A stretch of 38,522 nucleotides of DNA from Thermoplasmata archaeon. GTDB lineage: Archaea > Thermoplasmatota > Thermoplasmata > RBG-16-68-12 > JAGMCJ01. The stretch is taken from positions 1-38,522 of the forward strand of contig JAGMAI010000030.1 of the NCBI GenBank assembly GCA_023130895.1, in the 5' to 3' direction. The notes below the pieces were generated by a model. That model ran no database searches and had not been told where the DNA came from. It saw only the letters and a program-made list of their open reading frames with translations. This document shows, piece by piece, positions 32,216 to 36,816 of this stretch. Both the position numbers and the translations under genes were made by a program. Positions within the stretch are counted from its first letter, which is position 1. Each line of letters opens with the position of its first letter.

Positions 32216-32911
32216 ATGGTATACGAAACTGAAGTAATCGCCATGAGGGACGTCATATCCCAAATGATGAAGACCTCGCAGAACAGGCTCCTAGTGAACA
32301 CTGACAGGGTCTACTTGGCGAAAACCAACCTCATCACGCTTAAGTCCCTTCTAGAGGAGAGAGGGCCCAGAGGAATTTTCTTGTCCATCAACCGGCCCTA
32401 TCACTACATGGCCCACCTGCTGAGGATCCACAAGGTCGACTACGAAGAGATGCTCTTCATCGACGCCGTCTCCAAGATATCTGGGGAGAGGAAGATGGAG
32501 TGGAAGCAGACCACGTTCTTGGACAGCCCGTTCCAGATTCCCAAGATATTCGAGGACCTGCAGCTGATCGGGAAGACCCCGGACGGCTCTACATCCATCA
32601 TCAAGATCATCGAGAGCGACTTCGTGGTGATAGACGACATTTCCGCGATCTTCCACTACAATGAGCTGGGAACCGGAAAGCGCTTCCTGAAGGAGTTCCT
32701 CGATGCTGTCGCGTCCAATCCGAAGTCCTTCACTGCGTTCGCGATTGACCGGGAGACCCAGAGGGATGTCTACGAGTTCCTGGCCGACAGCTCCGACAGA
32801 TTGGTGGACATGGGCAACGCAGCCTTCATGGAGGTTCCCAAGGAGCTCGAGGAAGAGCACGCCCCCATGGCACGCCCGTCAGACGGCGAGGGAGGGATGA
32901 TTCATGAATGA
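32216..32911 (+). CDS. KaiC/RecA-like domain protein lacking Walker A (degenerate)
   Basis: 231 aa; Walker B-like DFVVIDDISAIF and RecA-like layout but no GxxGxGKT; overlaps the following KaiC-type ATPase gene by 8 nt. Confidence 0.65.
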   Translation: MVYETEVIAMRDVISQMMKTSQNRLLVNTDRVYLAKTNLITLKSLLEERGPRGIFLSINRPYHYMAHLLRIHKVDYEEMLFIDAVSKISGERKMEWKQTTFLDSPFQIPKIFEDLQLIGKTPDGSTSIIKIIESDFVVIDDISAIFHYNELGTGKRFLKEFLDAVASNPKSFTAFAIDRETQRDVYEFLADSSDRLVDMGNAAFMEVPKELEEEHAPMARPSDGEGGMIHE

Positions 32912-33587
32912 CGCGATAATAAGACGGTCCAGCGGAACGCCTGGCCTGGATGAGATGATATCTGGAGGTTTCCCATTCCCCTCGGTTCTCCTCGTCGCTG
33001 GGAGTGCCGGGACGGGAAAGACGACGTTCGCTCAGAAGTTCCTCTTCGAGGGTGCCAAGAACGGAGAGCAGTGCATATTCTTCACGACGCTCAGCGAGCC
33101 CACCCAGTGGATGCTGAGATTCTCCTCCCAGTTCGAGTTCGTCGATCCAGAGTACTTCGGCAGGGAAATAATCTATATCGACATAGGGCACGACATAAGG
33201 GAGAGCGGCCCTCATGAGATCCTCGACATCCTGGACGAGAAGATCGCCGCGATCATGCCACAGAGGATAGTCATCGATCCGATCACCGTCGTTTGCGACT
33301 TCATCGAGAACAACTACAGGACATTCCTGTTCGATCTGGTCACCAGGCTGAAGAACTGGGATTGCGTGACGGTCCTGACGGGCGAGGTCGCTCCCGGTCA
33401 GCTTTATCCGCCGGAGATCGCCCATGCAGTGGATGGGATCGTCCTGCTCATGTACACCCATGAAGGCGAGGAGAGACGCAAGTACATCGAGGTCCTCAAG
33501 ATGAGGGGAACGAACCACGTCACCGGAAAGCAGTCAATAGACATCACAACCGAAGAGGGCATAGTCGTCCTCAAATCGAAGTTCTAG
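32904..33587 (+). CDS. KaiC/RAD55 family ATPase
   Basis: 227 aa; RRSSGTPGLDEMISGGFPFPSVLLVAGSAGTGKTTFAQKFLFEGA (Walker A), RIVIDPITVV (Walker B). Confidence 0.92.
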   Translation: MNDAIIRRSSGTPGLDEMISGGFPFPSVLLVAGSAGTGKTTFAQKFLFEGAKNGEQCIFFTTLSEPTQWMLRFSSQFEFVDPEYFGREIIYIDIGHDIRESGPHEILDILDEKIAAIMPQRIVIDPITVVCDFIENNYRTFLFDLVTRLKNWDCVTVLTGEVAPGQLYPPEIAHAVDGIVLLMYTHEGEERRKYIEVLKMRGTNHVTGKQSIDITTEEGIVVLKSKF

Positions 33588-33616
33588 CGGGCCTGGGGAG
33601 TGGGCCAGAGGGTCAT

Positions 33617-33630
33617 TATCACACGTGATA
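33617..33630 (+). promoter_or_regulatory. Palindromic site TATCA-CACG-TGATA, within an 18-bp palindrome ATTATCAC-AC-GTGATAAT (33615-33632)
   Basis: Perfect arms; 15 nt upstream of TATA-like GCTTATACT (33646-33654). Confidence 0.7.
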
Positions 33631-33676
33631 ATTGGAAAACAAGATGCTTATACTCTGCGCCTGCTGTTTCAGAGAG

Positions 33677-33762
33677 CCAACAGATAACGATGACCCCTCC
33701 TCCGAGGAAAGACGGAGGCCCATTTTCTTGGGACCTTTGCTTTCCTCACCCCCCTTTTTTTT
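33677..33762 (+). ncRNA. Candidate ~86-nt small RNA under the palindrome-associated promoter
   Basis: TATA-like box at 33646-33654, hairpin CCTCCG-AGGAAAGA-CGGAGG, then C-rich run and T8 (33755-33762). A 32-aa ORF (33690-33788) overlaps but runs past the T tract. Confidence 0.4.
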
Positions 33763-33792
33763 CTGTGCAACGGGTGAGGACGGGCTAAGGAG

Positions 33793-33927
33793 CTACTCGA
33801 GATCCTTCTTCCTCGTGTCCTTGAAAACGATGACGTTGAGGCTTATGACCTCTTTTTCTTCGTCCTCCTCCTTTGGAAAAATCACGCTTTTGCCGTTGGG
33901 AAGGATTTTGTGGAATCTTAGTTTCAT
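33793..33927 (-). CDS. 44-aa small protein (not in the supplied ORF list)
   Basis: Translation MKLRFHKILPNGKSVIFPKEEDEEKEVISLNVIVFKDTRKKDLE*; TATA-like TTTAAATAAA at 33954-33963 (minus) fits a leaderless start; palindrome-like site 15 nt further upstream. Confidence 0.55.
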   Translation of the reverse strand: MKLRFHKILPNGKSVIFPKEEDEEKEVISLNVIVFKDTRKKDLE

Positions 33928-34842: not shown

Positions 34843-34877
34843 TATCAGCAAGGAGAACACAATTATCAGGACTGATA
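34843..34877 (-). promoter_or_regulatory. Two tandem palindrome-type sites upstream of wHTH C: TATCA-GCAA-GGAGA (34843-34856) and TATCA-GGAC-TGATA (34864-34877)
   Basis: Sites spaced 21 bp start to start; proximal one is 13 nt upstream of TATA-like CTTTAAATA (34821-34829, minus). Confidence 0.65.
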
Positions 34878-34878
34878 G

Positions 34879-35220
34879 CTACCTGGTCGGGATGGGGATT
34901 TTGATCCACCTGTTGTTGATGTCCTCGTCGTAGTTGAACTCGAGCCTGATTCTGAAATGCCCTTCCTGGAACATGATGCATGCGCTCTTGAGCTGTGACT
35001 TGTAGAGCTTCATGTTCTTTCCCTTGGAGGTCGTGACGATCTTCTCGACCTCGACCAATCCAGCGTCCTCGAGATCATGCATCTTGCGGTAGCAAGCGGC
35101 TATGGGGATATCGTACTTGTCGCTGATCTCCTGAACTGACCGCGGGTAGAAGTACGTCGCAACAAGAATCCTCTCTGCGTAATCATCAGTCAATAGTCTA
35201 GAGATTGCCTTCTCCCGCAT
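34879..35220 (-). CDS. Winged-helix regulator, paralogue D
   Basis: ORF 34879..35232; MREKAISRLLTDDYAERILVATY at 35220 preferred (TATA-like GCTTAAATCA at 35241-35250). wHTH YDIPIAACYRKMHDLEDAGLVEV. Confidence 0.83.
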   Translation of the reverse strand: MREKAISRLLTDDYAERILVATYFYPRSVQEISDKYDIPIAACYRKMHDLEDAGLVEVEKIVTTSKGKNMKLYKSQLKSACIMFQEGHFRIRLEFNYDEDINNRWIKIPIPTR

Positions 35221-35265
35221 TGCGATACTCATTCTCTACTTGATTTAAGCACATTTCTATGCAAT

Positions 35266-35279
35266 TATCAACGATGATA
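35266..35279 (-). promoter_or_regulatory. Palindromic site TATCA-ACGA-TGATA upstream of wHTH D
   Basis: Perfect arms; 15 nt upstream of the TATA-like box at 35241-35250. Confidence 0.7.
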
Positions 35280-35301
35280 CCCATACACCCGCTCTGGGGG
35301 G

Positions 35302-36816
35302 CTAGATTATCGGTACTAGCACCGCCTGCGGATAGCCCTTCGAGTGATCGAAGGAAAGGGCGTGGAGCTCGGTGTAGGGTTTCTCGCCGTAGAGCACAAC
35401 TGAACCGTCTATGTTCTCGATTTTCAGGTGAGTATGGGCGAGATTCGCGAGCGGTGCTGTAGAAGAGGTCGTTGACGTAACGATTCCTATGAAGATGTCC
35501 TTCGCCTTTCTGATCGACGACATGTGACCTGCCATGTCCTCTATCACCTCGTGGCCGAAGACCGCCTCCAGGGTGTCGAACCCCATCAGGGACAGGATCG
35601 GACGCTCCGTCTGCGAGAGATGATACTCGATGTTGCTCCATTTCAGCTCGTTGTCGATGTCAGAACCCTCCATTGGGAGTGCTATCTTGGAACCCTCCAC
35701 AGAGGTTGTGGCGGACGGTTCGAACACGCGCATGCACCTCTCGAACGCTTCCTGGCCGACAAAAGGCATGATCTCGTCCCTCACCATCTCCGAGGAGGCC
35801 TTCTTCTCGGGGACGAACGCAACTCCCCTGCCAAGCGAGATGAAGTTCGACAAGAGCGAGGTCTTGATGAGGTCAGAGTACAGCGTGTCGACATTCCCGC
35901 CTATCTCCACAGCGACTATCGTACCCTTCTTGAACCCGCCTATCAGAGCGTCGAGCTGGTCGCTTCCCGTCGAGATCCAGTTCTCGGATATGTCGGGCAT
36001 GGGTTCCCAACTCGACTTCTCACGCGGGATCTCGATCTTCTCGAAGCCAAAGGTCTTGATTCTCCCCCCGTCCAGACTGTAGGCACATTTGTGCTGCCTA
36101 ATCTCCGTGCCGCGAAGCTTCTCGATCTTCATTATCCTCAGCCGTCTGCCTTCGTGTTCCTCGCTCGTGAACGTGATGACCCCGTCCCCAAGATAATCGA
36201 GCCGCGTCTCCCCAGGGCTCTCCAGCACATACAGGACATCGGACGAGGAGGTCTCGACCAGGTCCTTCTGGAGCGTGTTCATCAGCTTCGAGGGGTGAAT
36301 CCCGTATCTCTCCGCCAGTGCGTTGATGCTATCTATCAGTATGAGGCTCTTCTCTGGGAGGGTGTCCTCGACCACATCATATGCCCTGTCGATCTCGGGG
36401 AGGTCCGATCCAAGGTCCAGGATGAGGCTGGTCTCCGTGACCTCGCCCTCGCTTATCTTGTCGTAGATGCTGCTCTCGTCCTCCTCACCCATCTCTATCC
36501 GGCCCTCGAGCTTCTTGAGCTCCGTTCTGTCGACCTTGCCTTCCTCCTCCTCAGGCCTTTGGTCGAACCTCGTCGGGGCGATCCGCTTCTTGAACTCGAC
36601 TCTGTCCTTGAGCCAGGGGAACTGGTTGTACAAGGAATGATCGCTCACCCTGATTGACATGTAGTACGAGTTCTCGACGCTCCCCAGCTCCTCTGTCAGC
36701 TGCAGGGCGAACGTAGTCTTGCCCGTTCCCGCAGCACCCTTGACTATCAAGGAATGTCCGCCTGGCCCTTTGAAGAAGTCTAGCAGTGCATCAGGAATAC
36801 CCTTCTCTTCTTTCAT
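35302..36816 (-). CDS. Two-domain RAD55/KaiC-like ATPase (active N-domain, degenerate C-domain)
   Basis: 504 aa; Walker A LIVKGAAGTGKTTFALQL, Walker B KSLILIDSINAL; C-terminal domain P-loop position reads GTIVAVEIGGNVDTLYSDL (no GKT). Confidence 0.82.
   Translation of the reverse strand: MKEEKGIPDALLDFFKGPGGHSLIVKGAAGTGKTTFALQLTEELGSVENSYYMSIRVSDHSLYNQFPWLKDRVEFKKRIAPTRFDQRPEEEEGKVDRTELKKLEGRIEMGEEDESSIYDKISEGEVTETSLILDLGSDLPEIDRAYDVVEDTLPEKSLILIDSINALAERYGIHPSKLMNTLQKDLVETSSSDVLYVLESPGETRLDYLGDGVITFTSEEHEGRRLRIMKIEKLRGTEIRQHKCAYSLDGGRIKTFGFEKIEIPREKSSWEPMPDISENWISTGSDQLDALIGGFKKGTIVAVEIGGNVDTLYSDLIKTSLLSNFISLGRGVAFVPEKKASSEMVRDEIMPFVGQEAFERCMRVFEPSATTSVEGSKIALPMEGSDIDNELKWSNIEYHLSQTERPILSLMGFDTLEAVFGHEVIEDMAGHMSSIRKAKDIFIGIVTSTTSSTAPLANLAHTHLKIENIDGSVVLYGEKPYTELHALSFDHSKGYPQAVLVPII

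Follow-up and report, generated by a model that had tools for sequence, protein, structure and literature searches.

The window analysed here is a stretch of 38,522 nucleotides (nt) from a Thermoplasmata archaeon (assembly GCA_023130895.1, contig JAGMAI010000030.1, positions 1 to 38,522). It carries genes for KaiC-family ATPases, for KaiC-like proteins without a Walker A motif and for four small winged helix-turn-helix (wHTH) proteins, together with copies of one palindrome in front of several of these genes (Table 1). We call the 231-amino-acid (aa) protein of the group degK, the 227-aa ATPase KaiC227 and the 504-aa protein GvpD504, and two of the wHTH proteins wHTH-A and wHTH-B. Families of the window proteins were assigned with Pfam and NCBIfam, and conservation was followed in a class survey of 150 Thermoplasmata genomes. 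A preliminary description of this DNA had seen in it a signalling module in which inactive RecA-fold proteins partner active ones; the observation is confirmed as real and its interpretation is partly supported.

Table 1. Genes and palindromes of the locus. Positions refer to the window; ORF, open reading frame.
Feature	Position	Strand	Remarks
degK	32216-32911	+	231 aa; putative KaiC/RecA-fold protein without Walker A (predicted inactive partner); from ORF, family search, alignment and model
KaiC227	32904-33587	+	227 aa; single-domain KaiC ATPase (PF06745); Walker A GSAGTGKTT and KMRG motif
GvpD504	35302-36816	-	504 aa; GvpD-like; N-terminal KaiC-type ATPase domain (P-loop, KLRG), C-terminal KaiC-like domain without P-loop
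wHTH-A	34879-35232	-	117 aa; orthologue directly after gvpD across the order (clade of 20 rows, 99/99)
wHTH-B	34407-34751	-	114 aa; HTH_20, 6.7e-7; orthologue is the second gene after gvpD in families f1-f5
wHTH 33996	33996-34385	-	129 aa; most diverged paralogue, genus-specific
wHTH 26014	26014-26445	-	paralogue downstream of DUF835; true start probably near 26361
DUF835 protein	26455-26997	-	180 aa; inactive KaiC-like; PF05763, 2.8e-36; upstream of wHTH 26014
Palindrome	32143-32158		perfect, TTATCAGTTCTGATAA; 57 nt upstream of degK start, 15 nt upstream of TATA-like CTTAATAG
Palindrome	33616-33631		perfect, TTATCACACGTGATAA; downstream of KaiC227; kept in the genus
Palindrome	34842-34857		first of a tandem, 1 mismatch; 12 nt upstream of CTTTAAATA for wHTH-B
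Palindrome	34863-34878		second of the tandem, 21 base pairs (bp) from the first
Palindrome	35265-35280		between gvpD and wHTH-A; 15 nt upstream of CTTAAATC; equivalents in other families
Palindrome	36869-36884		1 mismatch; ~53 nt upstream of gvpD
Palindrome	27052-27067		2 mismatches; between divergent DUF835 and TPR genes

An overlapping pair of degenerate KaiC-like and active KaiC genes

The genes of degK and KaiC227 share 8 nt. KaiC227 matches the KaiC family PF06745 at 1.6e-43, whereas degK is hit by no model of Pfam or NCBIfam at E<1 and thus falls into neither PF06745 nor PF05763 (DUF835). The Walker A motif is missing from all 37 distinct homologous ORFs of degK and is kept in 35/35 of their KaiC partners. 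The pairing of a degenerate with an active protein, as first described, is confirmed. The KxRG motif occurs in 7/37 degK proteins; by eye it derives from a KKRG before the second strand and it was therefore not counted as a finger motif. The AlphaFold model of degK is moderate (predicted local distance difference test score, pLDDT, of 72, with 11 sequences in the alignment), and its top Foldseek matches are the KaiC/RecA structures PH0284, FlaH and KaiC (probability 1.00, E 1.3e-4, template modelling (TM) score ~0.55). These matches support, but do not prove, the RecA/KaiC fold on which the preliminary description had staked its reading of the 231-aa protein. Profile-profile comparison of degK with KaiC227 gave a probability of only 2%, though the expected segment was aligned. 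Since it has no P-loop, degK is more likely an adaptor or an inactive ring member than an ATPase.

The co-occurrence predicted for related genomes was found: KaiC lies directly downstream in 33 of the 37 degK homologues, in many families, and an overlap of 4 or 8 nt is the commonest spacing (19 of 33 pairs). Two of the four remaining degK genes lie at contig ends, one is a split-gene fragment and the last is the surplus degK of a degK-KaiC-degK run; in L026 the KaiC gene after degK is cut by the contig end. Strong degK homologues (E<1e-35; counted by hand) are present in 37 of the 150 genomes, and named records with the gene include Thermoplasmata metagenome-assembled genomes, Methanomassiliicoccus sp., Haladaptatiplasma and Aciduliprofundum sp. 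JdFR-45. Within the order of the window, the KaiC group is present in each of the five f1 genomes and in two genomes of f2.

Several variants of the pair were encountered. At L104:1478-4327, L122:44-2163 and L086:5929-8001 degK-KaiC pairs are tandemly duplicated or followed by a further degK, a pattern resembling amplification of the pair as a whole. One in-frame TAG interrupts the degK homologue of genome G051 (L112:1534-2220), which is intact in G038 of the same genus; a pseudogene, an error and readthrough are all conceivable. The window's own genome has a second KaiC triad on another contig (C218, L057:807-2886). Its members are an active KaiC, a remote relative of degK with 189 aa and no P-loop, and a KaiC-like protein whose P-loop is broken (GPPGSGTE); two type IV pilin-like ORFs follow. 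The 189-aa relative is flanked by KaiC-type genes also in L016, L017, L019, L021, L023 and L027-L029.

A GvpD homologue adjoining wHTH genes

GvpD504 carries the P-loop GAAGTGKTT at residues 27-35 and exceeds the gathering cut-offs of two GvpD families, GvpD_P-loop (PF07088, 7.6e-17, 62.3 bits against a cut-off of 24) and GvpD_bR2 (PF20440, 3.7e-11, 43.5 bits against 27.9). It aligns with Halobacterium GvpD over 99% of its length (tblastn, 23.5% identity, 6e-24), and in both proteins the N-terminal P-loop is intact and the C-terminal one is lost. Among 51 GvpD-like proteins, Walker A is present in the first half of all and in the second half of only one, in line with the two-domain composition given in the preliminary description. 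The model of GvpD504 (pLDDT 84) aligns with tandem KaiC in its full length across 521 columns (2.3e-21); the global TM score is low (0.34), which we attribute to domain orientation. By family match and alignment, GvpD504 is a GvpD homologue, with a predicted tandem KaiC fold of an active N-terminal and a P-loop-less C-terminal domain. The proposal that it repeats in one chain the logic of the degK-KaiC227 pair thus stands as to the active and degenerate domains, but the protein is specifically a GvpD homologue and has a precedent of its own in the action of GvpD on GvpE.

GvpD-like genes were found in 122 of the 150 genomes and form two subfamilies. In that of the window, 28 of 30 loci have adjoining wHTH genes; the other is more distant and usually lacks them. 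Loci of the second subfamily without an adjoining wHTH gene are L162-L166, L168 and L170-L172, and a DUF835 gene stands alongside in L169 and L171. The gas vesicle family GvpA (PF00741) gave no signal in any of the 150 genomes, and we therefore ran a positive control on pNRC100, where the same search finds three copies and where gvpE, the activator gene, directly follows gvpD; GvpD504 accordingly is not part of a gas vesicle gene cluster.

All four wHTH proteins are homologous to one another (phmmer), as the term paralogues in the preliminary description implied, and wHTH-A and wHTH-B represent orthologous groups kept after gvpD in the order. Their recognition helix is nearly invariant, with P39, I40, A41, Y44 and R45 invariant. 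The nearby DUF835 protein lacks Walker A, as had been noted, and so do 9/9 of its relatives; DUF835 has been classed as an inactivated KaiC, iKaiC (PMC5847659).

The genes of these groups are contiguous, as DUF835-GvpD-wHTH(s)-degK-KaiC, in L056, a complete genome of 1,486,778 bp, and in L105. Closer to the window, the f2 locus keeps KaiC, wHTH-B, wHTH-A and GvpD in the same syntenic frame as f1; in G014 the order is methylthioadenosine phosphorylase, deaminase, phosphoribosyltransferase, KaiC, wHTH-B, wHTH-A, GvpD and uracil-DNA glycosylase (flanking enzymes named by eye from sequence). The last of these, the gvpD neighbour in G014, is a shorter glycosylase ORF without a NUDIX part. In the window a 331-aa ORF (36950-37945, minus strand), by eye a uracil-DNA glycosylase fused to a NUDIX domain, is adjoined by an Hsp20-like gene.

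A shared palindrome upstream of TATA-like sequences

The palindrome has the consensus TTATCA-N4-TGATAA. Allowing one mismatch, TTATCNNNNNNGATAA has 70 sites in the window's own genome against 16 in a reversed control; the window holds 21 matches with up to two mismatches against 7.6 expected, a number reached in 0/100 shuffles. Perfect copies number 191 in the 150 genomes and 11 in the control (summed partly by hand). The preliminary description placed the palindrome on all genes of the group, which holds for degK (perfect), GvpD, wHTH-A and wHTH-B (one mismatch each) and DUF835 (two mismatches) and fails for KaiC227 and wHTH 33996; both lack a copy and probably depend on transcription from the gene upstream. 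Other families retain the element in the promoters of their gvpD, wHTH and degK genes. It lies upstream of gvpD in 13 of 30 loci (0.09 expected), the copy in front of degK is kept in the genus and in L050, L051, L054, L089, L096 and L099, and other members of the order have variants in front of wHTH-A with the same TATA spacing.

Downstream of gene-oriented sites, AT content peaks at an offset of 15 (0.70 against 0.57 in rotated controls, 0/5000 rotations), and the peak persists in the own genome minus the window (1/5000). The best TATA-like octamer lies 13-17 nt away in 14 of 20 distinct module promoters from several families, against 2.7 expected; the palindrome-TATA spacing is informative for such oriented promoters only. 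The palindrome seldom overlaps TATA or the gene start. Archaeal activators typically bind upstream of the transcription factor B recognition element (BRE), and repressor sites typically coincide with the promoter or follow it (PMC5512572). As the palindrome lies upstream of BRE/TATA, an activator site is the better reading.

Palindromes occur in 51 of the 70 genomes with strong wHTH hits and in 16 of the 80 without (Fisher p 6e-11, uncorrected for phylogeny), and the wHTH proteins are predicted to bind them. Six f22 genomes (G059, G068, G084, G116, G128, G139) have 3-5 perfect palindromes each, and no wHTH or GvpD homologue was found in them; another factor may use the same palindrome there. 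Perfect sites in the window's genome also lie near genes for Lrp/AsnC ligand-binding-domain, TPR and DUF835 membrane proteins and others. Three 164-aa Lrp/AsnC ligand-binding-domain proteins have a perfect palindrome 51-64 nt upstream (L066:2446-2940, L071:2552-3046, L077:2347-2841) and are possible regulon members or co-regulators.

A candidate transcription-control circuit and its alternatives

We propose that the locus encodes a KaiC-family transcription-control circuit of the GvpD/GvpE type, in which wHTH activators on the palindrome would be controlled by KaiC-family ATPases and their inactive partners, and we put the probability of this reading at roughly one half. Binding and control are inferred in it from features that the sequences display directly, namely the domain make-up, the gene pairing and a palindrome about 15 nt from TATA. 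wHTH-A and/or wHTH-B would bind the palindrome and activate transcription there, their own operon included, together with a wider regulon. Haloarchaeal GvpD binds GvpE and reduces GvpE levels; it requires its P-loop, arginine-rich regions of GvpD are needed for repression, and the GvpE site abuts BRE (PMC4390858). By analogy, GvpD504 would bind the wHTH activator in an ATP-dependent manner and shut it off or remove it. The KaiC227-degK pair and DUF835 may feed signals into these same regulators, with degK and DUF835 as putative non-hydrolysing partners or adaptors of active KaiC rings.

Several observations weigh against this proposal. In most families degK-KaiC and GvpD-wHTH stand at separate loci, so that each half is more certain than a functional link between the two, and one physical module is not established. 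The f2 genomes G014 and G018 have KaiC without degK, and no degK remnant was detected in the f2 loci; the pairing is thus not obligatory and the inactive partner not essential. The g4 genomes have GvpD-wHTH with variant elements only and no perfect palindrome, f22 and g36 genomes have palindromes and no wHTH hit, the genome-level association of the two is uncorrected for phylogeny, and a test of palindrome-to-TATA spacing that ignored orientation was not significant in other families (1219/5000). The multi-component module of the preliminary description is accordingly upheld where the loci are contiguous (L056, L105) and by the synteny of f1 and f2, and it is weakened by the dispensable partner and the dispersed halves.

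The same dispersal, the f2 genomes and the palindromes in front of Lrp/AsnC-type, TPR and metabolic genes would also be expected if degK-KaiC and GvpD-wHTH were two signalling units that share only the site of a general transcription factor, their clustering in f1 and Aciduliprofundum being incidental or mere co-regulation. We regard this as rather unlikely, in view of contiguous five- or six-gene loci in distant lineages and of the f2 locus, which retains four genes in one frame. It is doubtful that degK serves purely within a mixed KaiC ring of the clock or ArlH type, as a structural or regulatory subunit, and takes no part in transcription: the frequent gene overlap, the KaiC-like folds and the triad beside pilin genes in the same genome point that way, but degK has palindrome and locus in common with wHTH and GvpD, and the window cluster is without motility or pilus genes. 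Many ArsR/TrmB-like wHTH proteins are repressors, and autoregulation by repression is common. A palindrome serving as a repressor operator for the wHTH proteins, with the ATPases relieving repression, is nevertheless slightly less probable again, as the site takes the usual activator position, upstream of BRE/TATA at a fixed spacing (PMC5512572), and rarely overlaps TATA or the start. A gas-vesicle regulator proper, suggested by the GvpD homology, is very improbable and was rejected, GvpA being absent from all 150 genomes while the pNRC100 control returned its three copies. A defence system is likewise unsupported, with weak local HTH and ATPase matches only.

The recurrence of the arrangement across the class suggests that haloarchaeal GvpD, the gas vesicle controller, is part of a much wider archaeal gene-control circuit. 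More tentatively, and with somewhat less confidence than we have in the circuit itself, the GvpD-GvpE switch could be a specialised offshoot of an old and widespread archaeal circuit, in which tandem or paired active and inactive KaiC ATPases control small DNA-binding activators and which, in Thermoplasmata, would serve a genome-wide regulon through one palindromic element about 15 nt from TATA. KaiC ATPases as archaeal signalling hubs, with inactive KaiC-family domains including DUF835, were proposed earlier, and so was the active/inactive pairing itself (PMC5847659, citing mBio e01959-17). Three elements appear to be new: a family, degK, that had gone unrecognised and has a fixed partner; an operon of GvpD and wHTH genes away from gas vesicles; and a common upstream element held at a fixed distance from TATA. 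A literature search of partial coverage found no description of them. Knowledge of how archaeal KaiC-family ATPases transmit a signal to gene expression is limited. The present analysis brings together a candidate ATPase with an inactive partner and a candidate activator with its DNA site, for which the promoter geometry has been measured, in many genomes, including the complete G049. The signalling-hub proposal thereby becomes directly testable in vitro, and GvpD gains a putative role outside gas vesicles.

Comparison with described systems

With the archaeal KaiC/iKaiC hubs (DUF835, MEDS; Makarova, Galperin and Koonin 2017; PMC5847659), the locus shares active and inactive KaiC-family proteins predicted to act in signalling; it differs in that degK is unrecognised by Pfam and NCBIfam and in having a defined two-gene pair and a shared candidate operator. 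Cyanobacterial KaiC resembles the window proteins in its RecA-like fold, in tandem domains (GvpD504) and in the KxRG of active domains, whereas the window proteins have a single active domain each. Neither KaiA nor KaiB was seen, though no search was aimed at them, and nothing points to a rhythm. Archaeal activators of the EarA and Ptr2 type are small HTH proteins acting just upstream of BRE, as predicted here for the wHTH proteins, but their site sequence is not that of the palindrome. Haloarchaeal GvpD-GvpE is likened to the locus by full-length GvpD homology with one active and one degenerate KaiC-like domain, by a regulator gene adjoining gvpD and by an activator-type site beside BRE/TATA. 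In contrast, the Thermoplasmata partner is a wHTH protein and not the leucine-zipper-like GvpE, identity stands at about 25%, the site stands at many promoters in genomes where no GvpA genes were found among the 150, and the window adds KaiC227, degK and DUF835 to the set.

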